Source: a virus. From it: DNA of 23,448 nt. Below the pieces are notes generated by a model. It made no database searches. It worked only from the letters and a program-made list of their open reading frames with translations, and was not told the DNA's origin. The DNA lies in the IMG/VR virus record IMGVR_UViG_3300034284_002254, positions 1 through 23,448 of that record. One strand, given 5' to 3'. Both the position numbers and the translations under genes were made by a program. This document shows positions 423 to 20,696 of this stretch, one piece after another (positions within the stretch are counted from its first letter, which is position 1; each line of letters opens with the position of its first letter).

Positions 423-440
423 TTTTTGTTAAATACTTTT

Positions 441-731
441 ATGAATTTTGTTGATACTGTTTTAGAAATTTTAGAAGAGGCTACTGATAAAGATAAAATG
501 CCCGCTAATAAACCTCGTCGTATTCGCAAAGGAGAACCTGGTTACGGAAAAAAGAAATTTGTAGTTAAGGCTAAAGAAGGAAATAAAGAAAAAATTATAC
601 GTTTCGGTGACGCTAATATGAAAATTAAAAAGAATATTCCTGCTAGAAGGAAATCATTCCGGGCGCGTCATAAATGTGATCAAAAGAAGTCTAAGTTAAG
701 CGCTGGCCACTGGAGCTGTAAGGCTTGGTAA
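441..731 (+). CDS. Conserved small basic phage protein, function unknown
   Basis: This is a 96-residue, Lys/Arg-rich protein. I chose the ATG at 441 over an in-frame TTG at 426, because a degenerate late element (TTAAATA, 429-435) sits 5 nt before 441. The C-terminal half carries the pattern IRFGDANM, then RRKSFRARHKCD and the ending HWSCKAW, with two Cys and two His that could bind a metal. This C-terminal signature (RKSFRARH-C ... WSCKAW) recurs in many tailed phages, including T4-like cyanophages, as a conserved hypothetical protein; I know no proven function. It sits between structural genes and overlaps a 10-bp tandem repeat at its stop codon, so a virion or head-assembly role is an inference from position only. 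Confidence 0.75.
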   Translation: MNFVDTVLEILEEATDKDKMPANKPRRIRKGEPGYGKKKFVVKAKEGNKEKIIRFGDANMKIKKNIPARRKSFRARHKCDQKKSKLSAGHWSCKAW

Positions 732-1232: not shown

Positions 1233-1245
1233 GATAAATAATAAT
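1233..1245 (+). promoter_or_regulatory. T4-type late promoter element for gp21
   Basis: GATAAATAATAAT, with core ATAAATA at 1234-1240, lies 11 nt before the ATG at 1252. It is identical over 12 bases (GATAAATAATAA) to the elements at 4826 (+) and 17517 (-). In T4 this kind of element replaces the -10 box and is read by RNA polymerase with the late sigma factor gp55. Confidence 0.75.
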
Positions 1246-1251
1246 ACAACC

Positions 1252-1929
1252 ATGGGACTAAAATTCTTAGTAGAAGACATCCACGAAGGCCTTGACTTTT
1301 TAGTCGAGGAGAAAAATAGACTCGGTGAACAAAAGCTTTATATCACTGGTCCTTTCTTAATGGCTGAACAAAAAAATCAAAATGGTAGAATCTATCGTTT
1401 AGATGAAATGGTTCGCGAGGTAGAAAGATATTCTGATGACATGATCAAAAGCCGTCGAGCTATTGGAGAAATGAATCATCCTCAATCTACAGAAGTCAAT
1501 CCTGTCAATGCTTGCCACTTAGTTACCGAATTAAAACAAAGTGGAAATTACTTCATGGGTAAGTCACAAGTTTTGAATACTCCAATGGGACTTCTTTTAA
1601 AGTCTTTAATTCAAGACAATGTTAAGATGGGTATCTCTTCTAGAGCTTTAGGTAATATCACTGAATCTGGTGGAGCTAAGAACGTTTCCAATTTCCATTT
1701 AATTTGTTTAGATGTAGTTCATCAACCTTCCGTTCAAAATGCTATGTTAGAGTCCATCATGGAATCCAAAGAATGGATGGTCCGTCCTGATGGTTCTATT
1801 GTAGAGTGTGCTGCTAGAGCTTACAAACAATTAGAAGAAACCGTAAAGACCTATCCAAAACACGGCACAGACAATTTTCTCAAAGAAGCTTTATTGAGCT
1901 TTATTAATACTCTCAAAACAGGTAAATAA
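1252..1929 (+). CDS. 21: Prohead core scaffolding protein and protease, gp21-like
   Basis: This is the maturation serine protease that is built into the prohead core and cleaves the scaffold and capsid proteins after assembly. From ATG 1252 the product is 225 aa, close to the family length. Visible family features are the FLMAEQKNQNGRIY segment near the N-terminus, the GEMNHPQSTEVNP motif whose His is the expected catalytic histidine, and MGISSRALG whose Ser is the expected nucleophile. An in-frame TTG at 1219 would add 11 residues, but it lies upstream of and across the late promoter, so ATG 1252 is preferred. There is no Shine-Dalgarno. The core protein, gp22 and gp23 follow in the T4 order. 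Confidence 0.93.
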   Translation: MGLKFLVEDIHEGLDFLVEEKNRLGEQKLYITGPFLMAEQKNQNGRIYRLDEMVREVERYSDDMIKSRRAIGEMNHPQSTEVNPVNACHLVTELKQSGNYFMGKSQVLNTPMGLLLKSLIQDNVKMGISSRALGNITESGGAKNVSNFHLICLDVVHQPSVQNAMLESIMESKEWMVRPDGSIVECAARAYKQLEETVKTYPKHGTDNFLKEALLSFINTLKTGK

Positions 1930-2267: not shown

Positions 2268-2280
2268 GATAAATAAAATT
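2268..2280 (+). promoter_or_regulatory. T4-type late promoter element for gp22
   Basis: GATAAATAAAATT, core ATAAATA at 2269-2275, lies 11 nt before the gp22 ATG at 2287. That is the same distance as in front of gp21. No Shine-Dalgarno lies between the element and the start. Confidence 0.75.
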
Positions 2281-2286
2281 ATAACT

Positions 2287-3255
2287 ATGGATTTCAAAAC
2301 AATTCTTAAAGAACAATTCAAGGATCTTATCACTGAAGAAACTCTTACTAGTGTTCATGAAGCTTTTGAAAAGGCTGTCGATGAAAAAGCCGAACAAAAA
2401 GCTCAACTTCAAACTGAAGCCGCTCTTCTTAAAATCGACGAAGATCACACTGCAAAATTAGAACAACTCGTCGAAGCTATTGATGCAGATCACTCAGCCA
2501 AGTTACAAAAACTTGTTGAAGCTATTGATTTCGATCACGCTCAAAAGATGACCAAGGTTCTTGAGAAGATTGATGAAGATCACACACAAAAACTTCAATC
2601 CGTAGTTGAAAAGTATGAAACCGCTCTTCAAGAAGAAGCTAAGTCTTTCCAAGAAAGAATCGTAGAAGAAGTTTCTAACTATATGGATCTTTATTTAGAA
2701 AAAGTAGTTCCAACTAAACAAATCAACGAAGCCGTTGAAAACATTCAGGCGCAAAGCATGTTAAAGCAAATTCGCCAGATTGTTGGAATTAACGAAGAAT
2801 TTATCAACACAGAGATCAAGGAAGCTCTGGTTGATGGAAAAAAAACAATTGATTCCTTAAAGAAGGAATTAAACGAAGCATTAGAGACTAACACTGAGTT
2901 GAACCATAAGTTCAATCAAGTTCAGTCAGCTCTATTACTTGAACAAAAAACCAAAGACATGCCCGAAGCTACAAAAAACTATGTTAATAAGCTTCTTAAA
3001 GGCAAGTCTCCAAGCTACATTTTAGAAAATTACCAATATGTAGTTGAGATGTTCGACAAGGAAATCTCCGAGCAAGAAGACGTTGCCAGAGAAAAGGTTC
3101 AAAAGCGGATAGTTGAGGCCGTTGACGTTCCCAAATCTGAAAACCTTCTTGAGGAAGAGATTTCTGTAGCACCTGCTAAAGTAGAAACAGGTGTTAGCGG
3201 ATATCTGAATGAGATGAAAAAATTAGATGGTTCTAAATTAAACCTTAGACATTAA
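2287..3255 (+). CDS. 22: Prohead core scaffold protein, gp22-like
   Basis: gp22 is the main internal scaffold of the T4 prohead; gp21 degrades it to small peptides during maturation. This 322-residue, acidic, Glu/Lys-rich protein is almost entirely predicted helix or coiled coil and sits directly before gp23 as in T4. Residues 50-109 are four consecutive 15-residue repeats of the form I-D-x-D-H-x-x-K-(L/M)-x-x-(L/V)-(V/L)-E-(A/K). The repeats contain LVE sites that fit the T4 protease preference (I/L)-x-E. The C-terminal region (about 200-322) holds a second helical block and ends LDGSKLNLRH. The gene uses its own late promoter and is followed by a 44-nt spacer before gp23. Confidence 0.9.
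   Translation: MDFKTILKEQFKDLITEETLTSVHEAFEKAVDEKAEQKAQLQTEAALLKIDEDHTAKLEQLVEAIDADHSAKLQKLVEAIDFDHAQKMTKVLEKIDEDHTQKLQSVVEKYETALQEEAKSFQERIVEEVSNYMDLYLEKVVPTKQINEAVENIQAQSMLKQIRQIVGINEEFINTEIKEALVDGKKTIDSLKKELNEALETNTELNHKFNQVQSALLLEQKTKDMPEATKNYVNKLLKGKSPSYILENYQYVVEMFDKEISEQEDVAREKVQKRIVEAVDVPKSENLLEEEISVAPAKVETGVSGYLNEMKKLDGSKLNLRH
2434..2613 (+). repeat. Four tandem 45-bp (15-aa) repeats inside gp22
   Basis: Codons 50-109 encode four units beginning IDEDHTAKL, IDADHSAKL, IDFDHAQKM and IDEDHTQKL. The DNA has diverged, but the protein period of 15 is exact. Confidence 0.85.
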
Positions 3256-3283
3256 TTGATTCATACTCGCGTTTCTTTATAAC
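3256..3283 (+). promoter_or_regulatory. Possible sigma70-like promoter before gp23
   Basis: TTGATT (3256-3261), a 16-nt spacer and TATAAC (3278-3283) lie just upstream of the gp23 ribosome binding site. No ATAAATA element is present here. The boxes match the consensus 4/6 and 5/6, which can arise by chance in AT-rich DNA. Confidence 0.35.
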
Positions 3284-3291
3284 AAAGGAGA
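3284..3291 (+). promoter_or_regulatory. Strong Shine-Dalgarno of gp23
   Basis: AAAGGAG lies 8-9 nt before the ATG at 3300. It is notable because it is the only clear Shine-Dalgarno found before a gene in this window. Confidence 0.8.
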
Positions 3292-3299
3292 AAAAAACT

Positions 3300-4736
3300 A
3301 TGGAACTTCTGCACATCGATAAATCAAAGGCCGAAGCACTTGTTGAAAAGTGGGCTCCAGTATTGGATTTCACATCTAACAAGATCGCTCCTATCTCTGA
3401 TGAAAGAGTTCGCTTAAACACCGCTATGGTTCTTGAGAACCAAGAAAAGTGGTGCTTTGAGGCTTCAAACCAAGCAGGTGGAACCGGATCAGTATTTGGC
3501 ACTGTTAACGCAGGTCAATATGGTGGCGCTGTACCAAACAGCGATACCTATGCTACTGGTGACGCCCGTCTGCCTAAGGTTCTCATCCCGATGCTTCGCC
3601 GTACTTTCCCTGAGTTGATCACTAACGAAATCGTTGGCGTTCAGCCCATGACTGGTCCAGTTGGTCTCGCTTTCGCTATGCGCTACAAGTACGAAGGTAC
3701 ATCCCTCGGCTACAGCGCCAATGGTGACGGTTCTAACCCATCAGGCCCAATCAGTGGAAACACAGCGACATCACAAGGTAAGGAAATCGGGTACAACTAC
3801 TTAAACACCGCTTTCACTGGTACATCCAGTGCTAAGCTTTCAGGAAATGGCGATTTCGCTATCCTCCCTGAAGATGCAGGTGTTGCTGCCCTTCTTTCCC
3901 AATTTGAGTTGTCCTCAAAGATCCCACAGCTAACCGTTTCATTCGAGAAGACCGCAGTTGAAGCCGGCACACGCCGTCTCGCTGCTAAATGGTCCGTTGA
4001 ACTCGAGCAAGATCTGAGAAACATGAACGGAATTGACATTGATAACGAACTTACCAATGCCATGTCTTATGAGATCCAGGCTGAAATCGACCGCGAAATG
4101 ATCGCGCGTATGATCCAAACCTGCCTCAACGCCGGTAAAGGCAAAGGCTATTCCACATGGTCCGCAATCTCGGCTGATGGCCGTTGGAGTGCTGAGCGTG
4201 CCCGTGACTTCTACAACCGTGTTGTTGTCGAAGCTAACCGTGTTGCTGTACGTAACCGTCGCGGTCCTGCCAACTTCATCATCGCTACACCCCGTGTTTG
4301 CGCTCTCTTAGAAACACTTCCTAACTTCACCATTCTTCCTACCCAAGGTAATGTTAACACATCACCTGTCGGTATTGCTAAGGTTGGTTCAGTTGGTGGT
4401 CGTTTCCAGATCTATCGCGATACCCGCACAGAAGCACAAGCTGCTGATAGTTACGCCAACGCTGGTTATGCCAGCCCACGCGCTGCTACAGTTGACTATG
4501 CTCTCTTAGGTTACAAAGGCAGTGAAGTGTATGACAGCGGTATTTTATATTGCCCATACATTCCTGTCATGGTACAAAGAACTGTCGCTCCAAACGACTT
4601 CAGCCCACGCGTTGGTCTCTTGACCCGCTATGGTGTTGTTGACAACATTTGGGGTGCTGATCTTTATTACCACCTTGTAATCTGCACCGGTTTCGGCGAA
4701 AGCTTCACACCAGGTTCAGCCGCCATTTACCTCTAA
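3300..4736 (+). CDS. 23: Major capsid protein, gp23-like
   Basis: This is the HK97-fold shell protein of the phage head (478 aa; T4 gp23 has 521). Matches to gp23 include the N-terminal VEKWAPVLD, then MVLENQEK, VGVQPMTGPVGLAFAMRYKYEG, a WSVELEQDLRNMNGID segment (T4 YSIELAQDLRAVHGMD), FIIATPRVCALLE and DSGILYCPYIPVMVQRTVAP. The N-terminal propeptide is expected to be removed by gp21. The likeliest site by alignment with T4 is after FE54 (W-C-F-E/A-S-N-Q), although this does not match the (I/L)-x-E rule. The gene has a strong Shine-Dalgarno and a clearly higher GC content and more C-ending codons than its neighbours, consistent with very high expression. A terminator follows 27 bases after the stop. 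Confidence 0.96.
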   Translation: MELLHIDKSKAEALVEKWAPVLDFTSNKIAPISDERVRLNTAMVLENQEKWCFEASNQAGGTGSVFGTVNAGQYGGAVPNSDTYATGDARLPKVLIPMLRRTFPELITNEIVGVQPMTGPVGLAFAMRYKYEGTSLGYSANGDGSNPSGPISGNTATSQGKEIGYNYLNTAFTGTSSAKLSGNGDFAILPEDAGVAALLSQFELSSKIPQLTVSFEKTAVEAGTRRLAAKWSVELEQDLRNMNGIDIDNELTNAMSYEIQAEIDREMIARMIQTCLNAGKGKGYSTWSAISADGRWSAERARDFYNRVVVEANRVAVRNRRGPANFIIATPRVCALLETLPNFTILPTQGNVNTSPVGIAKVGSVGGRFQIYRDTRTEAQAADSYANAGYASPRAATVDYALLGYKGSEVYDSGILYCPYIPVMVQRTVAPNDFSPRVGLLTRYGVVDNIWGADLYYHLVICTGFGESFTPGSAAIYL

Positions 4737-4763: not shown

Positions 4764-4796
4764 AAACCCCGATCGAAAGGTCGGGGTTTTCTTTTT
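4764..4796 (+). terminator. Intrinsic terminator after gp23
   Basis: A 10-bp stem (AACCCCGATC / GGTCGGGGTT, one G-T pair) closes a GAAA tetraloop at 4775-4778 and is followed by a T-rich run (TTTTCTTTTT). It isolates the highly expressed head module from the next gene. Confidence 0.93.
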
Positions 4797-4825: not shown

Positions 4826-4839
4826 GATAAATAATAATA
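4826..4839 (+). promoter_or_regulatory. T4-type late promoter fused to a GTG start
   Basis: GATAAATAATAATA, core ATAAATA at 4827-4833, lies 6 nt before the GTG at 4840. It shares 14 consecutive bases with the gp21 element. No ribosome binding site can fit between the element and the start codon. Confidence 0.75.
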
Positions 4840-6414
4840 GTGAATAAAGAATTAAAAAAAGAGGTTTTAAAATATTTTGTTGAAAATCAAAACATAAATT
4901 TGGTTTATAAACAGTTTGAAGGACAGGCAGGTAAGAGAACTCTGCAAAGATGGTGTTTTCCTGAGTTAAATGAAAAGGCCAAACAAGAGGCTAGAGACTA
5001 CCACAATAAACACAAAAATAACACAGACTATGTCGAAAAAAGAAAATTAAAATCTCAAGAATTTCGTAAGACAGAACATTATAAACAATTACAAAAACAA
5101 TACTACGAACTTAATAAAGAAAAAATTCAAGAGACTGTTAAAGGACATCGACTTAAAAATATAGAACATTACAAGCAAAGAGCTAAAGAAAACTATCAAA
5201 AGAACAAAAAGGCTCATCAAGCTAATGTTAAAAAGTATAGATTAGAAAATAAACAAAGACTGCAAGCTTTAGAATTAGCGAGATACCACAATGATCCTAT
5301 TACTCATTTGAAACAGGCTTTAAGAATGTCTTTAAATAGAGCGTTAAAACACGGAAAAGATATCAAGACTAATCGTTCTTTAAGTTATTTGGGTTGTTCT
5401 ATAGAGGAGTTTAAAAATTATTTAGAGGTTCGTTTTAAAGAAGGTATGAATTGGGACAATCGATCTGAATGGCATTTAGATCATATTATTCCTTTAGATA
5501 AAATTAATGAAGGTTATACTCTTGAGCAATTGTGTCATTATAGTAATTTTCAACCTCTTTGGAAGACGGATAATTTATCCAAAGGTAATCGTTTAACTTT
5601 AAATTTAAATTTTCCGTTAGAAAAATTAAATTACGAAAAAAATTTTTATCTACAAAAAGAAGGGAATTATGAAATTTTACCAACACATAATAAAATTGTT
5701 TTAAATTTTCAACCTCACTTTTATGACCAAGAAAGAATTCTTTGGAGTGATAATAATGTACGTCAAAAATTGATAGATAATAGATGCCAATATTTGGGTA
5801 AAAGTTCTGAAGAATTAACTGATGCTGAAATCCTAAGAGGATTTAAAATTTCAGGAATTTATTACGGGTATTCACATTTTTCTCCTTTATGGTTTAAAAA
5901 ATTTCTAACAGATTATTCTATTCAAAGTGTTTATGATCCTTGTGGTGGTTGGGGTCATCGAATGATTGGATTGTTAGGCACTAATGTCAAAAAATATATC
6001 TATAATGATTTTGATATTAAAACAGTTAGCGGTGCGGAAAAAATAAAAAACTTTTTAGAATTAAATGATGTGGTAGAGATTCACAATAAAAAAAGTGAAG
6101 AATTTGTACCAAATGAAAAGGTAGACGCTATATTCACATGCCCACCATACTTTAATAAAGAAAAATATAATAATAAATCATTCAAAGACTTAAACGATTT
6201 TTCTGACTGGTGGCGTAAAACAGTAGACAATTGTTTAAAATTAAAGCCAAAATATTTCGGTGTTGTCATTGATAATCAACATCTAGAGATAATTTCTAAT
6301 CCATTTAAAAATAGCATTTTGACTTTACAACAAAGGTTACAAAAAACACAAATGCACTTTTCTAAACAATCTCATAGTTCAGAAACCTTGCTGGTCTTTC
6401 AATTTTGTCAATAA
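4840..6414 (+). CDS. HNH endonuclease-DNA methyltransferase fusion
   Basis: This 524-residue protein has three parts. Residues 1-40 look like a transposase-type helix-turn-helix (ending TLQRWCF), followed to about 145 by a Lys-rich series of Y-x-x-N-K-x-K units typical of phage HNH nucleases. Residues 180-250 form an HNH nuclease: YLGCSIEEF, GMNWDNRSEWHLDHIIPL (His212, Asp214, His215), then FQPLWKTDNLSKGN. Residues 290-524 resemble an adenine-type DNA methyltransferase, with motif I VYDPCGGWGHRMIG (364-377) and catalytic motif IV TCPPY (433-437). The only good start is GTG 4840, directly after a late promoter. Placed alone between the gp23 terminator and the fibre genes, it resembles a mobile homing-type gene. 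Substrate and modification site are unknown. Confidence 0.85.
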   Translation: MNKELKKEVLKYFVENQNINLVYKQFEGQAGKRTLQRWCFPELNEKAKQEARDYHNKHKNNTDYVEKRKLKSQEFRKTEHYKQLQKQYYELNKEKIQETVKGHRLKNIEHYKQRAKENYQKNKKAHQANVKKYRLENKQRLQALELARYHNDPITHLKQALRMSLNRALKHGKDIKTNRSLSYLGCSIEEFKNYLEVRFKEGMNWDNRSEWHLDHIIPLDKINEGYTLEQLCHYSNFQPLWKTDNLSKGNRLTLNLNFPLEKLNYEKNFYLQKEGNYEILPTHNKIVLNFQPHFYDQERILWSDNNVRQKLIDNRCQYLGKSSEELTDAEILRGFKISGIYYGYSHFSPLWFKKFLTDYSIQSVYDPCGGWGHRMIGLLGTNVKKYIYNDFDIKTVSGAEKIKNFLELNDVVEIHNKKSEEFVPNEKVDAIFTCPPYFNKEKYNNKSFKDLNDFSDWWRKTVDNCLKLKPKYFGVVIDNQHLEIISNPFKNSILTLQQRLQKTQMHFSKQSHSSETLLVFQFCQ

Positions 6415-6417
6415 ATA
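6411..6417 (+). promoter_or_regulatory. T4-type late promoter overlapping a stop codon
   Basis: The ATAAATA core contains the TAA stop (6412-6414) of the HNH-methyltransferase gene and lies exactly 6 nt before the ATG at 6424. Confidence 0.7.
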
Positions 6418-6423
6418 TCATTA

Positions 6424-7002
6424 ATGGCAACCTGTCCAACTTATACTTCTACTATCAGACCCTCTGAAAATATCGGAGATTCTCTTATAAAGATTAATAA
6501 TAATTTTTATAATTTAAGAGAAGAACTTTGTTCCATAAAAGCTAAATTAGATGGCACCATACAAGTAAGAACATTTTTTTATTATGGGCCTAATGCTGCT
6601 AATGACCCTGTGAGTGGCATGAATGACAATACAGCCTCTAGACCTTCAGACTCTACTATTGAATCATTTGTAAATAGTTCTTCTCAATTAAACGTTCCAG
6701 CCATCTCTAAAGTCAATGATCAAGTCTATGTAGTTTACCAAAAAACAGGATTTTACCAAAACCAAGTAACCAGAGTAACTAGTGGAGTAGCAACAGCTCG
6801 AGTCATTAGCTTTTCTCAAGATATTCCTTGGTCTACTACAACCCCGGAAAGATTCGACACCTACTCTCCGGTATTCATCATCTGGCTATTAGTTTATGAT
6901 GGTAGTAAATATACTGTAGTGACAGGTTATCCTAAATTCTCACAAGCACAAACATTGTCTTCTCCGAATTGGAACAACCCAACAACCTGGGCACAATATT
7001 AA
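6424..7002 (+). CDS. Fibre/appendage-like structural protein, paralogue 1
   Basis: First of three tandem paralogues (192 aa). The N-terminal block NIGDSLIKINNNFYNLREELC (residues 17-37) is of the S-x-x-K-I-N-x-N-F type often found at the virion-attached end of phage fibre and appendage proteins. It is followed by the shared block VRTFFYYGPNAANDP and PAISKVNDQVYVVYQKTGFY. A short variable segment of about 40 residues leads to the shared C-terminal block FIIWLLVYDG ... GYPKFSQ ... NWNNPTTWAQY. A virion surface or receptor-contact role is inferred from the motif and from the neighbouring baseplate genes. The gene begins right after a late promoter, without a Shine-Dalgarno, and the next paralogue follows after 4 nt. 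Confidence 0.7.
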   Translation: MATCPTYTSTIRPSENIGDSLIKINNNFYNLREELCSIKAKLDGTIQVRTFFYYGPNAANDPVSGMNDNTASRPSDSTIESFVNSSSQLNVPAISKVNDQVYVVYQKTGFYQNQVTRVTSGVATARVISFSQDIPWSTTTPERFDTYSPVFIIWLLVYDGSKYTVVTGYPKFSQAQTLSSPNWNNPTTWAQY

Positions 7003-7006
7003 AAAT

Positions 7007-7975
7007 ATGGCGTCTTGTATTGATACACTTATTGAAACTATTGAAAGTACTTCTTGTTTAAGAAATTCATTACCCGTTATCAATAATAATTTTAATGAAT
7101 TAAATGAAATAGTTTGTACTCTTAGAGAAAGAGCCAATGCCAACAAACAAATTAGAACATTCTTTTATTATGGACCTAACGCTCAGGTAGCCCCGGCTTC
7201 TGGAATGGATGATAATTTATTAACTCGACCCTCTAACTTAACTATTGAAGCTTTTGCTAATAGTCCTTCACAGCTTAATCTCCCAGCTATTTCTAATCCA
7301 GGAGATGTAGCTTATGTTTTATACCAAAAAACAGGATTTCAAGGAGCTTTGCCTTCCCAGTCTTCTGGGTTTAATCCTCAAACGGGATCATCTCAGAATT
7401 ATTCTATTGGACGTTCAGTGACCCTTCAATTTAATAAGTGGTATAACGTAGATGACTATCATTCCGTAACGGCTGCAGCAGATGGTACTCCTAATAATTT
7501 AGCAACAATAAACGTTAAGTTTAAAACTCCTACGGGGCAAACCGCAGAATATAACTATACAGCTACAGGAATGGGGGATGATACCTATATGGAATGGGAT
7601 CCATATAGTGTTATTTGGTCAGAAGGTTATCCTGCACCCAAAACCACTAAAGGATTGATTCCTAGACCTTTTAAAAACACTCCAGGAACACAATTTTTAT
7701 TTTCAGTTTCCGGATCACCCGTTTCTAGCACACTCAGTGCCTTCTTAAAAAAAGTAGCAACCACTCCCGGATTAACCCCAGCTTCGGTGACTAATGATCT
7801 CAAAACACAAATTTCTCCAACGTTTATAATTTGGAAATTAAATTATATTGATACACAATATTATGTAGAAATCGGCTTTCCTAAATTTACTAAGGGATCT
7901 ACTTCCAATACCGGAACTCCCAACAGTAATTGGAATAAACCACAAAATTGGACTACTTTCGAATCTTGGACTTAA
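7007..7975 (+). CDS. Fibre/appendage-like structural protein, paralogue 2 (long insert)
   Basis: The longest of the three paralogues (322 aa). It keeps the N-terminal block SLPVINNNFNELNEIVC, the shared IRTFFYYGPNAQVAPASGM and AISNPGDVAYVLYQKTGF segments and the C-terminal block FIIWKLNYIDTQYYVEIGFPKFTKG. Between them lies about 130-150 residues with no counterpart in paralogue 1, rich in Ser, Thr, Gly, Pro and aromatic residues. That part includes a run suggestive of a beta-rich domain (VTLQFNKWYNVDDYHSVTAA). The ends are conserved and the middle is replaced, as expected for a surface-exposed, host-contacting region. Start ATG 7007 lacks a Shine-Dalgarno. Confidence 0.7.
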   Translation: MASCIDTLIETIESTSCLRNSLPVINNNFNELNEIVCTLRERANANKQIRTFFYYGPNAQVAPASGMDDNLLTRPSNLTIEAFANSPSQLNLPAISNPGDVAYVLYQKTGFQGALPSQSSGFNPQTGSSQNYSIGRSVTLQFNKWYNVDDYHSVTAAADGTPNNLATINVKFKTPTGQTAEYNYTATGMGDDTYMEWDPYSVIWSEGYPAPKTTKGLIPRPFKNTPGTQFLFSVSGSPVSSTLSAFLKKVATTPGLTPASVTNDLKTQISPTFIIWKLNYIDTQYYVEIGFPKFTKGSTSNTGTPNSNWNKPQNWTTFESWT

Positions 7976-7978
7976 TAT

Positions 7979-8659
7979 ATGGCTGACTCTTGCGCAACAA
8001 ACGTACAACTCATTTATGGTAATGAAAACATTGGAGATTCTTTAACTAAGATCAACAATAACTTTGAATTACTAAAAACAGCGGCTTGTGATATAGAAAA
8101 ACAATTAGATGACATTGTCAATGTTAGAACCTTTTTCTATTACGGGCCAAACTCTGCAACAGACTCCGAAGATGGTGTTAATTCAGGAAATTTAACTTTA
8201 CCCTCCACAACCACTATCCAAAATTTTGTTAATAAACCCACTGGTCTTAATCTGACCACAGTTTCTGAAAAAGGAGATATTGCTTACGTCATTTATCAAA
8301 AAACAGGTTGGTATACCAACGCACAAAACTATCAAAGATCTGGTGGAGGAACTGTTCCATATACACGGGTTACACAATCGCAAAGAGTAGAAGTTCAAAG
8401 AGTTCGCAGAATCGGCATTGGTTGGACTACCAGAACCAGAACTTATTGGGTGACGGAATATCACACTTATTATGCCGGTTATTCCTGGTCTGCCAATATA
8501 AACGACACTTACAACATATACACTCCTATTTTCGTCATTTATAAATTAACCTTTGATGGTACAAATTATAGTGTCGATGCAGGATTTCCTAAATTTACTC
8601 GCGCTTCATCTAATTCTACCTTAAACTGGAATAATCCCGCAGCTTGGAGTATATATTAA
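7979..8659 (+). CDS. Fibre/appendage-like structural protein, paralogue 3
   Basis: Third paralogue (226 aa), starting three bases after paralogue 2. The shared parts are NIGDSLTKINNNFELLKTAAC, VRTFFYYGPNSATDSEDG, GDIAYVIYQKTGWY and the C-terminal FVIYKLTFDGTNYSVDAGFPKF ... LNWNNPAAWSIY. The middle is again different: about 60 residues rich in Arg, Thr, Tyr and Trp (for example RVEVQRVRRIGIGWTTRTRT). The last base run reads ATTAATATATGG into the next gene. No catalytic motif is visible. Trimeric fibre or head/tail decoration is possible, but which particle part carries it cannot be decided. Confidence 0.7.
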   Translation: MADSCATNVQLIYGNENIGDSLTKINNNFELLKTAACDIEKQLDDIVNVRTFFYYGPNSATDSEDGVNSGNLTLPSTTTIQNFVNKPTGLNLTTVSEKGDIAYVIYQKTGWYTNAQNYQRSGGGTVPYTRVTQSQRVEVQRVRRIGIGWTTRTRTYWVTEYHTYYAGYSWSANINDTYNIYTPIFVIYKLTFDGTNYSVDAGFPKFTRASSNSTLNWNNPAAWSIY

Positions 8660-8662
8660 TAT

Positions 8663-9154
8663 ATGGAAATAACCATAAACAATATTTACGATTATTTACA
8701 AGAAAACAAAAACAATCTCAATTTTAAACAAAGAGATGATGTAGTTACGGAATGTGGGACTAGCAAATTTCAAACCCTCTTTTATGATAAAAAGGCGGAA
8801 TTTTTTGACATTCCAGAAGAAGTTAAAAATTTTTTATTAAAGTCTTTTAACATACAAGAAAGAGATTATCACTTTCTTCAAATTCAAAAGTATGAGGTAG
8901 GGGATTACATTTTACCCCATAAAGATTGTTATCCTCAATTTGCTTTACTGCATTTATCTACCTCCAGTTTAGATGGTCTTACTCTAGAAGACTTTGATGG
9001 TAAATATAAATTTTTACCAGATATTGCAGGAAACCTCGTTCAAATCCCTAAATATCGTTGGCATTGGGTCAACCCAGTAAGAGAAAAAACCCGATATACT
9101 GCCGTATATGGTTTAAACCCTCTTAAAGGTTACGATACAATTTTAGATCAATAA
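8663..9154 (+). CDS. 2-oxoglutarate/Fe(II)-dependent dioxygenase
   Basis: The 163-residue product has the metal triad and cofactor-binding residues of the 2OG-Fe(II) oxygenase fold: H86-x-D88 in ILPHKDCYP, a distal H134 in YRWHWVNPV and R144 in KTRYTAVYGLNP for the 2-oxoglutarate carboxylate. Such genes are common in marine T4-like phages, where their substrates are mostly unknown. Its place directly behind three fibre-like genes suggests hydroxylation of a virion protein, but a nucleic acid or host substrate is just as possible. The stop overlaps the start of the next gene (TAATG), so the two are probably translated together. Confidence 0.82.
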   Translation: MEITINNIYDYLQENKNNLNFKQRDDVVTECGTSKFQTLFYDKKAEFFDIPEEVKNFLLKSFNIQERDYHFLQIQKYEVGDYILPHKDCYPQFALLHLSTSSLDGLTLEDFDGKYKFLPDIAGNLVQIPKYRWHWVNPVREKTRYTAVYGLNPLKGYDTILDQ

Positions 9155-9693
9155 TGAAAAACTACGCTCTATTCTCAGAAAACGGTCGATTTATCGGCTT
9201 CACTAATTTTAAACCAGTTAATGGTCTTTATAAAGAAATGCCTGATTCTTTTGATCCCACTTTAAATGTTTACGTAGGGGATTATGAAACAGGTAGTCTA
9301 AGAGATATTAGCGAACTACAACCTCGAGATTATCGAGAAGCCAATGTGGATAAAAAGTGGGTTCTCTTAGAATCCGAAATGAACCGGGAGGCAGGAACCG
9401 TAATTACTGAACAATACGGTTATCAAATTTTTAAACAATTAAACATCATTATGGATGTTTTAAATAAGAATAGTGATAAAATTCAATTGACTCCTGAATT
9501 TACTGAAATGTATGATAAAATTCAGGAAGTTCGTTTCAACATTAAAGCCTCTGTAGAGTCTTATAAGGAAGCACCTAAAGCTAATGTAGTTACTAAAGAA
9601 GAAGAAAGAATCTTTATTGAAAAGTATACCCAACAACAATTAAACATTAAAGACGAACCTGTAATTTTAAGCACAGGTCCTATTTCTTCTTGA
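9154..9693 (+). CDS. Unknown protein between fibre-like genes
   Basis: I do not recognise this 179-residue protein. The N-terminal 60 residues look beta-rich and begin MKNYALFSENGRFIGFTNF. The rest is predicted helical (about residues 90-140, with EFTEMYDKIQEVRFNI) with a C-terminal Glu/Lys/Gln-rich tail ending ILSTGPISS. The start ATG overlaps the stop of the dioxygenase gene by one base (TAATG). Its position among fibre-like genes would suit a fibre assembly factor, as the beta-rich N-terminus and helical C-terminus recall such proteins, but no specific motif supports it. Confidence 0.6.
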   Translation: MKNYALFSENGRFIGFTNFKPVNGLYKEMPDSFDPTLNVYVGDYETGSLRDISELQPRDYREANVDKKWVLLESEMNREAGTVITEQYGYQIFKQLNIIMDVLNKNSDKIQLTPEFTEMYDKIQEVRFNIKASVESYKEAPKANVVTKEEERIFIEKYTQQQLNIKDEPVILSTGPISS

Positions 9694-9700
9694 ATAAATA
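9694..9700 (+). promoter_or_regulatory. T4-type late promoter before the fourth fibre-like gene
   Basis: ATAAATA follows the stop codon of the upstream gene directly and lies exactly 6 nt before the ATG at 9707. Confidence 0.72.
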
Positions 9701-9706
9701 ATTGAT

Positions 9707-10351
9707 ATGGCTTTTACTTTAGTACAAAATATTTTAGGTTCTGAGTGTATTGGAACTAGCAGACAAAAAATTGTAGATAACTTTACTTCTCTCGAATCTA
9801 CAATTATTGCTTTAAGTTCACAAACCATCAACACAACAGACACCAATACTATTGATTTTACGTACAATAACACAACACGTAATTTACAAGCCAGTATAAA
9901 AGACAATTCTATACAAGAAAGTTTTATTCAATCTAATTCCGTTAGTACCGACAAAATTGTTGATGGTTCAATAACCTACGACAAACTTTACACGGATGTA
10001 ATTCCTAAGTTAGCTAAAGCTTGGGTTAATTTTAATGGCACTACTAACCCCCCAACTATTAATGCTAGTTATAATGTTTCAGGAGTAACCAAAAACTCTA
10101 CTGGAGATTATACTATCACTTTCGAGAATAGTTTAGGAACTGCCTCTTATTCTGTTTGCGGAACCTCTCGACATCAAACCGCTAATACTTCAAATTTAGG
10201 GTTTGGTACTTCAGTTACTCTACACCCTACAGAAGCCCCCACAGACACCACAGTTCGTATTTGGAATACCTCTTTTCAAAAAACTAACGTAGTCTCTAAC
10301 ATTATTTCTGAGGCGGACTCATCTTCAATTTCTGTACAAGTATTTGCATAA
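9707..10351 (+). CDS. Fibre-like structural protein, divergent relative
   Basis: This 214-residue protein carries the related N-terminal module IGTSRQKIVDNFTSLES (residues 16-32), then a stretch with short beta-like repeats (SIKDNSIQESFIQSNSVST, DKIVDGSITYDKL) typical of trimeric fibre shafts. The C-terminal part is Thr/Ser/Asn-rich with a hydrophobic end (SSISVQVFA). It lacks the FFYYGPN and PKF blocks of the three upstream paralogues, so it shares only the attachment-type N-terminus. It is likely a minor fibre or baseplate appendage, which is an inference from motif and context. It starts directly behind a late promoter, without a Shine-Dalgarno. Confidence 0.68.
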   Translation: MAFTLVQNILGSECIGTSRQKIVDNFTSLESTIIALSSQTINTTDTNTIDFTYNNTTRNLQASIKDNSIQESFIQSNSVSTDKIVDGSITYDKLYTDVIPKLAKAWVNFNGTTNPPTINASYNVSGVTKNSTGDYTITFENSLGTASYSVCGTSRHQTANTSNLGFGTSVTLHPTEAPTDTTVRIWNTSFQKTNVVSNIISEADSSSISVQVFA

Positions 10352-10373
10352 TTTGTATCTTTAAATTGAAGCC

Positions 10374-10380
10374 ATAAATA
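10374..10380 (+). promoter_or_regulatory. T4-type late promoter before the baseplate-associated gene
   Basis: ATAAATA lies exactly 6 nt before the ATG at 10387 (ATAAATACAATAAATG), the same spacing as before 4840, 6424 and 9707. Confidence 0.72.
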
Positions 10381-10386
10381 CAATAA

Positions 10387-11895
10387 ATGGCTAAACCTAA
10401 AGATGAACTGGCGCAGATAAAAGCAGAAACTGCTGCTTTGGAAAAACAAGTTATTGTTAAAGCGTCAAAGAATGGTTCTGAATTTAACAAAGCCTTTAAT
10501 GAAGCTCGCAAGAGCGGAAAGAGTGTATGGGATGCTTACAATCAAGCTGATTTAACTGTTAAGGCTAACGCCAATAAACCTTCCCCTGCTGGAGACGGAG
10601 GAAGCTCTTCGGAAGCAGTCAAAAAGAGAGCGATGTGGGATCCTCACTTAGGTAAAGTTTTCGGTAAGATGGGAGAAGCGGTATTAGGGGGTAGTAATGA
10701 AGCTATAGATACCCTAGCGGGAGCTAGTTCCTCCATTCAAAATGTCACAAGACAAGCTGCTGTACACTCCAAAAGATATAAACGGTTAGCACAACAAACA
10801 GCAGAAAACATTGCAGGAACAACGGCAAATATTACCGGAGGTATTGATAGTTTTAGTGATTCTATCACTAGATCTTTAGACACATTTTCAGAACAAATTC
10901 GAACCAATACTAAACCCATATCTGATTTTATGGGACAGACCTTAGGCACTCTTACTGGGGTTATCCAAGATCCTTTAGGTCCAAATGGTTTAGGAAATGC
11001 TGCTACTCGTCTTATTAATTCCGTATCTCCTGGTATGGGAGATAAAATTAATGGTTTAAATAAAAGTCTTCATTTAGAGGCTTTAGGAAGATTGCCTAGT
11101 CAAGTCATGTCTAGTATCAGCCATGTCATGCTAGCCGTGAATAATTTATTGGCTATACCTTTGAGTATATTGTCAGAAATTTATTATGGCTTACAGACTA
11201 TTATCAAATCCATTTCTAAAATGATTAATAATGTCATTGATGGGTTTATGAGTTTATTAATGAATTTTTTAGACAGTATCATACCCATTAAAAGTATTAT
11301 GGGCTTATTAAATTCTATTTCTGATTTGGCTGGTCAGATAGGGGGGTTAGCTGGGTCTTTTAACATTAGCATGGTTACTGATATTACCAGTCAAATTACA
11401 GGATTTACAGATCAATTTACTCAAGTATTAAACAACCCTTTAGACTTTGCAACTTCATTTTTACCCACGGATGTAACAAACGTTTTAAACAACTTAAATG
11501 ATCCAGAAAAATTGTTAGGTCAATTTTTACCGGAGGAAGTAAGTGGTTTTGTTGATGGTATAAAAAACCCAACCGACATGATTAAACAATTCTTACCTCC
11601 TCAATTAGCTCAAGGATTTGATAAAATATCCAGTATGACAGGTTTAGGTTATACTGGAAATATGGGTTATGGTTTTGGTTCGTCTTTAAAGGACACACAA
11701 GGAGATGTGTTAAACAATTTAATGAGCAAGTTTCAACAACAATTACCTATTTTAGCTCCTTTATTAGCAGGACAAGCCGAGACACCAGAAAGCCAGGAAC
11801 CTAAATTATTAGGAGAAGGAGATACTGTGGCTAGTCATCACTTGTATCAAAATAGAGACAAACAACCACAATATCAAAAAGCTCAAAAAGCTTAA
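10387..11895 (+). CDS. Large hydrophobic baseplate- or tail-associated structural protein
   Basis: I do not recognise a family for this 502-residue protein. The N-terminal 80 residues are charged and helical (MAKPKDELAQIKAETAALEKQ), followed by a Gly/Ser linker. Residues about 110-360 are long amphipathic and hydrophobic helices (for example ILSEIYYGLQTIIKSI and FMSLLMNFLDSIIPIKSIMG), with repeated I/L/F-rich segments. The C-terminus is Pro/Gln-rich. It directly precedes the gp5-like hub with an 8-nt gap, so it could be a hub component, a tail-tip membrane-contacting protein or a short tape-measure-like protein. The membrane-like helices in a virion protein suggest it may insert into or cross the host membrane. 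Confidence 0.6.
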   Translation: MAKPKDELAQIKAETAALEKQVIVKASKNGSEFNKAFNEARKSGKSVWDAYNQADLTVKANANKPSPAGDGGSSSEAVKKRAMWDPHLGKVFGKMGEAVLGGSNEAIDTLAGASSSIQNVTRQAAVHSKRYKRLAQQTAENIAGTTANITGGIDSFSDSITRSLDTFSEQIRTNTKPISDFMGQTLGTLTGVIQDPLGPNGLGNAATRLINSVSPGMGDKINGLNKSLHLEALGRLPSQVMSSISHVMLAVNNLLAIPLSILSEIYYGLQTIIKSISKMINNVIDGFMSLLMNFLDSIIPIKSIMGLLNSISDLAGQIGGLAGSFNISMVTDITSQITGFTDQFTQVLNNPLDFATSFLPTDVTNVLNNLNDPEKLLGQFLPEEVSGFVDGIKNPTDMIKQFLPPQLAQGFDKISSMTGLGYTGNMGYGFGSSLKDTQGDVLNNLMSKFQQQLPILAPLLAGQAETPESQEPKLLGEGDTVASHHLYQNRDKQPQYQKAQKA

Positions 11896-16655: not shown

Positions 16656-17429
16656 TTATGAGATTTTAGTCTCACGATAGAGTTGAACCTTCTCAATAAT
16701 GAATTTAAGAATTTCAGATCTCATAATATCTTCTTTAGTAAACTCTACACAATAGATGCCTTGTTTTTGAGATTCCTCATCATTGAACAAATCAAACATA
16801 GCTTTGAAACCTGATTGCTCTTTATGTTTCAAATCTGTTTGCATGGGGTCACCCAAAATGAAATATTTGGTGAATTTACCGATACGAGTCAAAGAAGTTA
16901 ATAATTCTGAAAAATTGGCGTTTTGAGCTTCGTCCACGATAACTGCTTTAGCATTATAAGACGCCCCTCGAAGATAATTGACAGGCATTCCTTTAACTCT
17001 TTCATCAGCATGAAGTCTTTTAATATCACCAGAAGGAAGCAATTCTTCTAATTTATCATTAAGAACAGAAACGAAAAATTGTAATTTTTGATCTGCATCT
17101 CCTGGAAGTGTGCCCATAGAATGAGCAGCACTCTCTACAATAGTTCGCACATAAATGATGTCACTAATTCTTTTAGAATTCAAAAGTTCTAAAGCAGAAT
17201 ATACTGCTAATATAGATTTAGAAGTACCAGCTGGACCAGAAAGAAACACAATTCTGGTATCTTTATGAGTAGCTAATTCTATAAAAGCTTTTTGTTTTTC
17301 TGTCCAATCTAACCCTCTCAAATTTAAAACATAATCTATTTTCTCTCTTTGATGAACTCTTGGAGAGGTATCTTTAGTGGCTTCTGAATTAGTCGGGTTA
17401 ATAATTTTTGTTTTTTTAATTTTTTTCAT
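16656..17429 (-). CDS. phoH: PhoH-like ATPase
   Basis: This 257-residue protein is a PhoH-family P-loop ATPase, a common marine phage gene thought to act in RNA or phosphate-starvation metabolism, though its phage role is unproven. Motifs in order are Walker A GPAGTSKS (65-72; a Ser at the position that is usually Gly), Walker B VIVDEAQN (163-170) and GDPMQTD (193-199). The conserved VRTIVESAAHSMGTLPG and the LRGASYNAKAVIVDEAQN segment fit the family. The first 30 residues are a basic, Ser/Thr-rich extension. Start at ATG 17429 is fixed by the leader structure just upstream. The gene is divergent from the nuclease-like gene at 17540 and has no Shine-Dalgarno. Confidence 0.93.
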   Translation of the reverse strand: MKKIKKTKIINPTNSEATKDTSPRVHQREKIDYVLNLRGLDWTEKQKAFIELATHKDTRIVFLSGPAGTSKSILAVYSALELLNSKRISDIIYVRTIVESAAHSMGTLPGDADQKLQFFVSVLNDKLEELLPSGDIKRLHADERVKGMPVNYLRGASYNAKAVIVDEAQNANFSELLTSLTRIGKFTKYFILGDPMQTDLKHKEQSGFKAMFDLFNDEESQKQGIYCVEFTKEDIMRSEILKFIIEKVQLYRETKIS

Positions 17430-17434
17430 GGTAT

Positions 17435-17460
17435 AAAAAAAAGCAACCTACAAAGGTTGC
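17435..17460 (-). terminator. Intrinsic terminator in the phoH leader
   Basis: On the minus strand a 7-bp perfect stem (GCAACCT/AGGTTGC, 17460-17454 and 17449-17443) with loop TTGT is followed by eight Ts (17442-17435). It ends 5 nt before the phoH ATG at 17429. It lies between a minus-strand late promoter and phoH, so transcription starting there should end before the gene unless it is read through. Confidence 0.85.
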
Positions 17461-17503
17461 CTGTTGCTGATGAATAATAAAATGTTGATACTTTCAATAG
17501 CAT
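17435..17503 (-). ncRNA. Possible short terminated leader RNA upstream of phoH
   Basis: If transcription starts about 7 nt after the late element and ends at the T-run, the product is a roughly 65-70 nt RNA with a 3' hairpin and U tail, which is the size and shape of a small RNA or an attenuated leader. The start site is inferred from T4 promoter geometry, not seen. No known RNA family is recognised. Confidence 0.35.
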
Positions 17504-17505
17504 CG

Positions 17506-17517
17506 TTATTATTTATC
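17506..17517 (-). promoter_or_regulatory. T4-type late promoter on the minus strand, upstream of phoH
   Basis: On the minus strand this reads GATAAATAATAA, with core ATAAATA at 17516-17510. It is identical over 12 bases to the elements before gp21 and before 4840. Transcripts would begin near 17503 and meet the terminator stem about 43 nt later. Confidence 0.72.
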
Positions 17518-17539: not shown

Positions 17540-19030
17540 ATGTCACAAGATTACTTTTTGTCTAAGGTTTATGAGTCTGTAAGAAATCAAACAGCTCCTC
17601 CTTCCAATAAACCACAAAATCTCAAACAAGCTTACTATCGGGTTATTTTAGAACAAATCAATGAAGATGCAGATATCTTAATGCAAGACCGAGATGCAGA
17701 AGGAAAACCTGTCGGTGACGTAGAAGAATTTAAAGTCTCTGATACAGTAGCTAGTAAAATAAAATCGGAAATTAGAAAAGAAACATCAACTGAAATAGAA
17801 GGTAAAAAAATTAACGTAACACAAATTATTGATGAAGTTCTAAGGGATAAAAATTGGGCAGGTAAAGGCAAAAAAGATATGAGTGAGTATCCAGAACTGT
17901 TAGAAAAAACATTGCAAATATTTGCGAATAAAGAATTAGTGTTAGAAAATTTAATAAAATATAAACAATTTGCTAATCAAAATGATTCTTATGTTGAGCA
18001 ATTTTTTTCTAATAATGTTAAAAAAAATATTTCACTATCTCAATTAATTCCTGATTGGTTTAATAATTTCTTTAAAGACAAAGATGGGTTGTCTGTTGCT
18101 AACAAACTTTGGGATATAAAAACTAAAGGCAAAACCAGTGTAGGAAAGGGTGAATTAATGTTTACCCTTATTTCTGATTCTAAAAAAGGAACAACGGGTG
18201 ATTTGTATTTTGATACTCTGGGTCACGTTGAAGTAAAAGGGTTAGGAGGGACGATGGGAGGAGATGCATTTGTTAACAATAAGACACCTGCGTTATTGAA
18301 TGATATATACACCCAATCGTCGGAAGGTACTACCTCGTTACCAGAAAAGATTTTAAATCGAGCTAAACAAAGCATTAAAAACACTATAAACAGCATCTTA
18401 AAAGAAAGAGAACTTAAAAGAAAAACACAGGAGTCTGATTTAGTAGGACTTCGACAAATAATCTTAAAATTGGATGAACTAGAATCTTTTAAAGAGTTTG
18501 AAGATCTTATAGACAAATCTAAAATACAACAAGTTCAAAAAAATGCTATTAAATCTGGTATTGAAAAGGTTTTAAAAATTAAAGAGAAAAAAATTAAAAA
18601 TACATATAGACCAGCCTTAGAAAGTTTTTTTACTTCTTTTAAAGAGTTAACAGACGAGCAATTAACAGAAGGAATTTTGGCTTCCAGATCTTATGAAAAT
18701 TTACCTTTAGAAGAATTAAGAGAAGCAATCTACGAAATAATTGTCAGTAATAAATCACAATTATTCAGTGAAACAGGATTAACCGCAAAATTTGACTATC
18801 TTATTACTGCTTTACATATTGTAGGTTATCAAGAAATGAAAAGGTTTTCTGGAATTTTATTCCTCAATGACAATACAAAAAATATGATTTACTATTCATT
18901 CACGAAAGATTCTTCTTTGGGTGATAGGTTGAAAAATGTTTTTCAATTTTTAATTGAAAAATCTCCAGCTGTCTATTTGACAATGAGTGAACAAGCCTTT
19001 TCTGTCGGAGTTTCATTTTCCAAAATTTAA
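17540..19030 (+). CDS. Predicted PD-(D/E)xK nuclease-like protein
   Basis: The 496-residue product has a helical, charged N-terminal region (1-190) and then GKGELMFTL (Glu205), GTTGDLYFD (Asp221) and HVEVKGLGGTMGG (Glu231-x-Lys233). The order E ... GD ... ExK is the core pattern of PD-(D/E)xK restriction-type nucleases. The following 250 residues are helical and Lys/Glu-rich (for example KIKEKKIKNTYRPALESFF), ending with a beta-like segment. Similar phage proteins exist in marine T4-like phages as structural or hypothetical products, and I recall this only loosely. Its role could be DNA processing during packaging, host DNA degradation or defence. A degenerate late element (TTAAATA, 17526-17532) lies 7 nt before the ATG. 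Confidence 0.55.
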   Translation: MSQDYFLSKVYESVRNQTAPPSNKPQNLKQAYYRVILEQINEDADILMQDRDAEGKPVGDVEEFKVSDTVASKIKSEIRKETSTEIEGKKINVTQIIDEVLRDKNWAGKGKKDMSEYPELLEKTLQIFANKELVLENLIKYKQFANQNDSYVEQFFSNNVKKNISLSQLIPDWFNNFFKDKDGLSVANKLWDIKTKGKTSVGKGELMFTLISDSKKGTTGDLYFDTLGHVEVKGLGGTMGGDAFVNNKTPALLNDIYTQSSEGTTSLPEKILNRAKQSIKNTINSILKERELKRKTQESDLVGLRQIILKLDELESFKEFEDLIDKSKIQQVQKNAIKSGIEKVLKIKEKKIKNTYRPALESFFTSFKELTDEQLTEGILASRSYENLPLEELREAIYEIIVSNKSQLFSETGLTAKFDYLITALHIVGYQEMKRFSGILFLNDNTKNMIYYSFTKDSSLGDRLKNVFQFLIEKSPAVYLTMSEQAFSVGVSFSKI

Positions 19031-19067
19031 GGTTGCTATAATCTCATAAATTTGCCATACTCTCATT

Positions 19068-19598
19068 ATGGCATTCTGTAAATTAGCTAACTATCAGGGT
19101 CAAGTATTCAAAGATATGAATCTTTGGGCACCTCCAGGAGCTTATGTTTTTGATGCTGAGACTCACGAACCTATAGAGGTCACAGAAAAAACGGCTTTTT
19201 ATACCACAGGAAACATGAGATTGGGTATCGGAAAATACCGAATCAATATGATCACACCAAACGGCAAAAAGGTTTATTGCAATAACTACATGATGGGAAG
19301 CACTAAAAAGCGTTTTTACGCTGTATGGGAACTCAAAGACAAGCCTTATACAGCTGAGGATATATTCGAAAAGTATGGTTATAAGGTTACACCAGACCAT
19401 CAACGAGTCAAAAAGTATAAATTGACTGGGCGAGTTAGGGTTAAAAAAACTGCTAAAATTCTTAGAGAACAAGGTCGATTAGAAGAGGCTAATCGCATTG
19501 AAAAAGAATTAGAAGAACATTTGAAAATGGGTAAGCGATATATTTGTCCTATTTGGATGGATTTTAAAACTGAAGAACAAAAAAAATCTTTTCATTAA
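19068..19598 (+). CDS. Unknown conserved-looking phage protein
   Basis: I do not recognise this 176-residue protein. The N-terminal 100 residues look like a small beta-rich domain (LANYQGQVFKDMNLWAPPGAYVF, then MRLGIGKYRINMITPNGKKV). The C-terminal 70 residues are basic and helical (KKTAKILREQGRLEEANRIEKELEEH) and end in CPIWMDFKTEEQKKSFH. The basic helical part could bind nucleic acid or a protein partner. It follows the nuclease-like gene on the same strand after 37 nt. No late element is seen close to the ATG, and a long antisense frame in this gene is a shadow. Confidence 0.6.
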   Translation: MAFCKLANYQGQVFKDMNLWAPPGAYVFDAETHEPIEVTEKTAFYTTGNMRLGIGKYRINMITPNGKKVYCNNYMMGSTKKRFYAVWELKDKPYTAEDIFEKYGYKVTPDHQRVKKYKLTGRVRVKKTAKILREQGRLEEANRIEKELEEHLKMGKRYICPIWMDFKTEEQKKSFH

Positions 19599-20198: not shown

Positions 20199-20506
20199 CT
20201 GCTTTTCAGTTAAATGAGGAACTTAAAGAAAGGTGTATTCTTTTAGGAGCTTCTAAGTGTTATACTCAATACATCGACCATCCTAGTTCACCCTTTTGGT
20301 ATAATGCAGTTAAGATGGGGCCACAAATGCATAAAAATTATGTTATGGTTATTTGTGGTCTAATAGACAATTATTTAGAAGAGTTTGACTTTTTAGGGTT
20401 TCAAGACACATCAACAGATGTCATGTTAAATCAGGATCATCGGTTTGTAGTATATTGTTTTTATAGTGATAAAGAAAATTTCAACAAAGAAATGAACCCC
20501 GCATAA
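20195..20506 (+). CDS. Small 103-aa protein, unknown
   Basis: I do not recognise this 103-residue protein, which starts at a GTG inside the previous stop (GTGA). It has an N-terminal helix with two Cys (EELKERCILLGASKCYTQY), a hydrophobic mid-part (NYVMVICGLIDNYLEEFDFLGF) and an Asp/Phe-rich end. The TAA stop lies inside the ATAAATA late element (20503-20509). Confidence 0.55.
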   Translation: MTAFQLNEELKERCILLGASKCYTQYIDHPSSPFWYNAVKMGPQMHKNYVMVICGLIDNYLEEFDFLGFQDTSTDVMLNQDHRFVVYCFYSDKENFNKEMNPA

Positions 20507-20509
20507 ATA
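20503..20509 (+). promoter_or_regulatory. T4-type late promoter overlapping a stop codon
   Basis: ATAAATA contains the stop of the upstream gene and lies 10 nt before the ATG at 20520. A 6-bp inverted repeat (GCATAA 20501-20506, TTATGC 20518-20523) flanks the intervening A-run and covers the start codon. Confidence 0.6.
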
Positions 20510-20519
20510 AAAAAAAATT

Positions 20520-20696
20520 ATGCCACTATCAAAAAACGAAATTGAATGCTTTGTAGATACCGCTATTGACGAAGCTATCTTTGAAATTTTTAAAAATGAA
20601 TTCAATACTCTCAAAGAGATTGAATATGCTATTGAATATCTTCAAACAAAAATTCAAGATTTAGATCCTGAAGACTTCGAAGATTTTATTTCTTAA
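20520..20696 (+). CDS. Small acidic 58-aa protein, unknown
   Basis: This frame encodes 58 residues, strongly acidic and helical, starting MPLSKNEIECFVDTAIDEAIF and ending LDPEDFEDFIS. It is preceded by a late element, and its TAA shares the bases TTAA with the stop of the convergent gene on the other strand. The high Glu/Asp content resembles small phage modulators or inhibitors that mimic DNA, but that is only a general resemblance. Confidence 0.6.
   Translation: MPLSKNEIECFVDTAIDEAIFEIFKNEFNTLKEIEYAIEYLQTKIQDLDPEDFEDFIS

Follow-up and report, generated by a model that had tools for sequence, protein, structure and literature searches.

Across a group of T4-like phages that infect aquatic bacteria, late promoters are placed almost directly on start codons, and most promoter-proximal genes are probably expressed as leaderless or near-leaderless mRNAs, a reading to which we assign a probability of about 0.8; both the transcription start (+1) and leaderless translation are predicted here from sequence. 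Our reference is a 23,448-base virus fragment from IMG/VR (IMGVR_UViG_3300034284_002254, positions 1–23,448; the window), in which the late promoter word ATAAATA recurs a few nucleotides before genes. The reading draws on the spacing between promoters and starts, its specificity and conservation, a bias in the start codons used, the lack of Shine–Dalgarno (SD) motifs and the presence of the late sigma factor gp55 in relatives, all of which were directly observed.

In the mechanism that we propose, ATAAATA would serve a T4-like phage as its late promoter box of the gp55 type, occupying −12 to −6 by T4 numbering, and selection would keep it 5–6 nt from the start codon. RNA polymerase would begin transcription either at the first base of the start codon, an A or a G, or one base earlier. 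Most promoter-proximal late genes would thereby be transcribed into mRNAs with little or no leader, for which an SD is unnecessary, with the major capsid gene gp23 retaining an SD leader. Many relatives would apply the same layout to their early genes through host-sigma promoters.

Late promoter boxes in the window

The original prediction placed ATAAATA exactly 6 nt before the starts of four genes (GTG 4840, and 6424, 9707 and 10387) with no SD in the way. The spacing is exact at all four, none of them has an SD, and a fifth case lies on the minus strand (Table 1). All seven plus-strand copies sit 6–11 nt before a gene start (gaps, i.e. nucleotides between box and start codon, of 11, 11, 6, 6, 6, 6 and 10). 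The word as such is not over-represented in the window (8 seen versus 11.4 expected); its placement is what stands out. When the boxes were placed at random, four of the seven fell at one gap in 0 of 200,000 trials, in keeping with the earlier claim that the spacing is not due to chance. Once the promoters are granted and the gap alone is random, p is 0.002 (gaps 5–30) or 0.05 (gaps 5–12), and the window by itself therefore gives strong support to a box very close to the start and modest support to a gap of exactly 6.

In the nearest relatives (loci L006 and L007), ATAAATA and the 6-nt spacer are retained before the orthologues of 6424 and 9707 and before that of the following gene, with changed spacer letters (TCATTA/TCATAA, ATTGAT/ACTTAT and CAATAA/CATAAA). 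A fixed 6-nt rule, as first proposed, holds to this extent, but three window genes (1252, 2287 and 20520) lie at gaps of 10–11. Gap 6 is the preference of the window's own subclade, and gap 5 is the commonest across relatives.

Table 1. Promoter and ribosome-binding features of the window
Feature	Position	Strand	Gene and remarks
Late box ATAAATA (4827–4833) + N6 (ATAATA) + GTG 4840	4827..4842	+	Endonuclease VII-like/methyltransferase-like gene, 4840–6414
ATAAATA (6411–6417) + N6 + ATG 6424	6411..6426	+	Gene 6424–7002; N6 kept in L006
ATAAATA (9694–9700) + N6 + ATG 9707	9694..9709	+	Tail-fibre-like gene 9707–10351; N6 kept in L006
ATAAATA (10374–10380) + N6 + ATG 10387	10374..10389	+	Tape-measure-like gene 10387–11895; N6 before the corresponding L006 gene
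Fifth ATAAATA-N6-ATG	17501..17516	-	Start 17510; before a 25-codon mini-ORF (open reading frame) upstream of phoH; N6 also in L133 and L137
ATAAATA + N11 + ATG 1252	1234..1254	+	gp21-like head maturation protease
ATAAATA + N11 + ATG 2287	2269..2289	+	gp22-like scaffold gene
ATAAATA + N10 + ATG 20520	20503..20522	+	Small gene
Probable variant late box TTAAATA + N5 + ATG 441	429..443	+	TTAAATA-N5-ATG about 5-fold enriched in relatives
Possible sigma-70-like promoter TTGCTA-N17-CATACT-N6-ATG	19028..19070	+	Gene 19068; single window case, weak alone; same layout at 142 places in relatives
SD (AAAGGAG), an exception	3282..3302	+	gp23 major capsid gene; AAAGGAG or similar kept in most relatives

Spacing across relatives

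The relatives comprise 80 loci around gp23 and 80 around the replicative helicase of one relative, about 1.9 Mb from IMG/VR; gene starts in these loci were called mechanically, and deduplication was approximate. In the gp23 set before deduplication, ATG most often follows ATAAATA at a distance of 5 nt (91 of 424 boxes, with about 5 at each other distance). With near-identical sites removed and open frames required, 51 of the 179 sites in the first set lie at gap 5 (log10 p about −35), as do 45 of the 114 in the second (log10 p about −37); pooled, these are 96 independent sites, against about 2 expected per gap. Comparing the spacing with AT-matched words, as had been suggested, reveals a sharp enrichment specific to ATAAATA, at gap 5 and not at 6: among 21 permuted A5T2 words, only ATAAATA and its shifted readings peak (62 at gap 5 versus at most 9 for unrelated words), which rules out generic A/T-richness as the cause. 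A reversed-pattern control gave far fewer matches (in the long relative G011, 0 versus 17 for the forward pattern).

The preferred gap differs between subclades. The ATAAATA-N5-ATG arrangement is kept at gp21 in nearly all members of a sister subclade, with spacers of varying sequence. In the window's subclade the gp21 gap is mostly 9–13, and that of gp22 is 5–13, again mostly 9–13, giving a predicted leader of a few nucleotides that is still too short for an SD. The earlier claim of late promoters fused to starts and of leaderless late mRNAs is well supported in its core by the comparative evidence, with these two genes and the SD-led gp23 falling outside it. The trait may have a single origin or more than one on the gp23 tree, in which long branches meet and the careful search is unfinished.

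The window contains the ATAAATA of the T4 late box (TATAAATA) exactly at 8 sites. The first T of the T4-type box is not conserved in the group (23 of 96 sites, in an upstream profile covering 12 nt), a deviation from TATAAATA.

Predicted transcription start and a second promoter type

In T4 the 8-bp late box spans −13 to −6 (PMC2988020), which makes +1 the sixth base beyond it; a gap of 5 therefore puts +1 on the A of ATG. The original prediction had assigned +1 to the first base of the start codon at a spacing of 6 nt; the T4 coordinates give this result at gap 5, and at gap 6 they predict a leader of 0 or 1 nt. Of the start codons used at gap 5, 94 are ATG and 25 are GTG, with neither TTG nor CTG, as expected if the first base of the transcript must be a purine.

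Late promoters, to which the phenomenon was first thought to be limited, are indeed fused to starts, but so are promoters of another type in many relatives. At these loci, sigma-70-like promoters (TTG-N19–21-TAnnAT) are most frequent at gap 6 (ATG 142, GTG 40, TTG 2, CTG 1), and since such a box ends at −7, this gap again places +1 on the start codon. One relative (G011) carries a run of early-type genes with TTGAC...TATAAT-N6-ATG. In the relatives, the offset of either promoter type (gap 5, late; gap 6, sigma-70-like) thus puts the predicted +1 on the start codon, the window's late gap of 6 being one off, and at late gap 5 that start codon supplies a purine, with AUG preferred.

Shine–Dalgarno signals and the gp23 exception

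SD motifs are near background in the clade, gp23 excepted. SD 4-mers precede 49 of 508 boxless genes in the clade contigs, versus 72 of 160 (45%) among the other genes of the Pelagibacter phage isolate HTVC008M, and the rate expected by chance is about 7% by our own estimate from base composition. At genes with gaps of 4–8, a single SD was found among 87, where the box itself fills the space that an SD would occupy; two of the fragments (G001 and G002) partly repeat each other. The SD retained before gp23 hints at host ribosomes able to use SD sequences, in which case their lack elsewhere may be a choice of layout. Many relatives (L005–L084) also share a GGTCGA element or a hairpin just upstream of gp23 (window 3255–3300).

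A Bacteroidota host, with ribosomes that ignore SD sequences, was considered and is disfavoured: the −7 element TAnnTTTG shows no clear enrichment upstream of genes, TTG...TATAAT is enriched there in most contigs, and gp23 retains its SD. Host assignment through relatives binned into metagenome-assembled genomes gave a single distant match (29%).

Transcription and translation machinery

The gp55 profile (phrog_234) matches proteins in five long relatives (G004, G006, G010, G011 and G013) and in HTVC008M, and initiation in the group is likely gp55-driven. The ribosomal protein bS21 is encoded by G006, G011, HTVC008M, a second Pelagibacter phage (Mosig EXVC030M) and the methylophage Melnitz. 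That of HTVC008M is reportedly taken up into ribosomes (PMC6375957), and a link between phage bS21 and late replication has been described (PMC9723584). A bS21-like gene lies a short way downstream of the helicase at 42 of the 80 helicase loci (L143–L222), and one was also noted for L102 and L103. A requirement of bS21 for the gap-5 layout is not supported, as helicase loci without a bS21 match (L191, L197, L199 and L213) hold gap-5 sites too.

A phage initiator tRNA aiding leaderless translation was also considered and rejected. The tRNA-Met(CAT) genes of G011 and G004 are not of the initiator type because, judged by eye, positions 1:72 are paired and the anticodon stem lacks GGG/CCC. Some relatives carry a one-piece transfer-messenger RNA (tag AEYDYSFEDEEVAIAA) among several tRNAs (L118:11891–13361 and L066:18605–19245), and one has an array of 17 tRNA genes (L131:10993–18257, in G004).

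Weighing the alternatives

Coincidence, with an A/T-rich word happening to fall near starts because the window as a whole is rich in A and T, is in line with the unremarkable count of ATAAATA there, but it is refuted by the random-placement trials and the very strong enrichment in relatives, and its probability is negligible. Genome compaction alone would be a more substantial explanation: short intergenic spaces would press promoters onto starts, and the spacing would be translationally meaningless. The genes are tightly packed, the TAA of the box at 6411 also terminates the preceding gene, and some gaps in the window's subclade reach 9–13. Packing, however, does not lead one to expect single-base peaks at gap 5 for late and gap 6 for sigma-70-like promoters, nor the missing TTG and CTG at late gap 5, and T4 and the cyanophages, which are compact as well, keep leaders of 15–30 nt; we consider this explanation improbable. 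Still less credit is due to the idea that the A/T-rich stretch acts as a signal for translation (an unstructured or bS1-binding element) with transcription starting further upstream. Many boxless genes of the group do have A/T-rich, SD-free starts, but only ATAAATA, the exact T4 late consensus, peaks where other A5T2 words do not, and the unrelated TTG...TAnnAT promoters show a matching offset.

Transcripts might also begin 1–6 nt before the start codon, the zero leader being incidental. This would suit the window's gaps of 6, 10 and 11 and the sigma-70-like promoters of HTVC008M, which peak at gap 10–12. The modal gap in relatives is nonetheless the zero-leader gap for both promoter types, with a purine rule at the start codon, and we regard a short leader throughout as rather unlikely, though well worth keeping in mind.

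Several findings weigh against leaderless or near-leaderless expression from gp55-type promoters, or at least against its strictest form. The gaps of the window itself are equally consistent with a leader of 1–6 nt and with none at all. A pyrimidine occupies −1 at 90 of 94 gap-5 sites, versus 376 of 680 controls, yet one is frequent at gaps 9–11 too; it is no clean sign of initiation, and we do not lean on it. A GTG start, as at 4840, would be weak for leaderless initiation in Escherichia coli (PMC9031893), although not in some other bacteria. The gp55 profile has no match in the nearest fragments (G001–G003), and the window, also a fragment, was not searched for it. Profiles of the co-activator gp33 and the sliding clamp gp45 (phrog_254 and phrog_223) are unmatched in the relatives, which are fragments and may have diverged, so that the full T4 activation scheme is hypothetical here.

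The window and its phage

The gene order of the window is T4-like, with head–tail and head-closure proteins, a gp21-like protease, a gp22-like scaffold and the gp23 major capsid protein, followed by the endonuclease VII-like/methyltransferase-like gene, tail-fibre-like and tape-measure-like genes, and PhoH. Profile matches to phrog_138 (E = 7.6e-85), phrog_207 (E = 3.8e-56) and phrog_237 (E = 3e-4) place it in the gp23 lineage, with gp21 and gp22 as neighbours. A DNA search of the window against phage records and isolates returned no match and no close relative, and its gp23 shares no more than about 35% identity with those of isolates, mostly marine cyanophages.

A strong intrinsic terminator (4764–4789; 11 pairs and a T-rich tail) follows gp23, just 5′ of the endonuclease/methyltransferase gene, which is missing from the corresponding place in L006. 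Three consecutive genes (6424, 7007 and 7979; window 6424–8659) are apparent diverged paralogues that share, by eye, an RTFFYYGPN-like motif and have no family match.

Between the minus-strand fused promoter and phoH lies the 25-codon mini-ORF (17426–17516, minus strand), whose stop, ending at 17426, overlaps the phoH ATG at 17429. It spans a terminator-like hairpin (GGCAACC...GGTTGC-T8; fold z −3.8). The nearest relatives at this place (L133 and L137) retain the promoter, the N6 spacer, the N-terminus of the mini-ORF and a hairpin of different sequence, and have no stop at the window's stop position. Hairpin and mini-ORF could possibly form an attenuator upstream of phoH.

Comparison with known systems

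Late transcription in T4 is a textbook system that produces SD-led messages. T4 late promoters (gp55/gp33/gp45-dependent, TATAAATA) share with the window group the box, its position at structural genes and an A/T-rich downstream segment, along with the gp55-family protein found in relatives. The distance from box to ATG differs: 12–35 nt in T4, mostly 26–28, versus 5–13 in the window group. A large and abundant aquatic group of T4 relatives with the same promoter on the start codon would mean that a whole phage programme can discard translation signals, and it raises the question of how the hosts' ribosomes treat leaderless messages and what part phage bS21 plays. A bolder extension, which we regard as a long shot, is that a T4-like lineage turned nearly its whole programme, early (host sigma) and late (gp55), leaderless with the capsid gene left on an SD leader, that the bS21 which many of its members encode next to the replicative helicase helps to shift host ribosomes in that direction, and that promoter–start fusion makes up half of a takeover of translation.

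The marine cyanophages P-SSM2, S-PM2 and Syn9 resemble the window group in having ATAAATA near late genes and gp55, but their gaps are mostly 15–30 nt with no peak at 5–6. Closer in layout are HTVC008M and Mosig, isolates that stand apart from the window's clade in the gp23 tree (with its long branches and unfinished search): they carry ATAAATA-N5-ATG at 9 and 6 genes, respectively, together with gp55 and a phage bS21. Their late genes are bimodal, with either gap 5 and no SD or 15–28 nt usually with an SD, and little between (loci L093, L111–L115, L139 and L140). Annotated starts of HTVC008M agree with the gap-5 prediction at 6280, 7562, 19456, 31132 and 49760, and Melnitz has two gap-5 sites. 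Late-promoter prediction was previously described as 'unsuccessful in PMP genomes' (pelagimyophages; PMC7029224), and other published searches targeted TATAAAT (PMC3037559; PMC9004378). The gap rule could serve as a simple predictor of promoters and start codons, pelagimyophages included.

Start-codon-fused promoters in T4-like phages are apparently previously undescribed: we found no description of leaderless T4-like phages in the open-licence literature, subscription journals lying outside the search. The nearest parallel comes from bacterial leaderless genes, in which TANNNT lies about 12 nt before the start, as in Actinobacteria and Deinococcus–Thermus (PMC3160421). As in the window group, a −10 box at a fixed distance places +1 on the start codon; there the box is the −10 element of the host sigma-70, whereas in the window group it is also the late-sigma box of a lytic T4-like phage.

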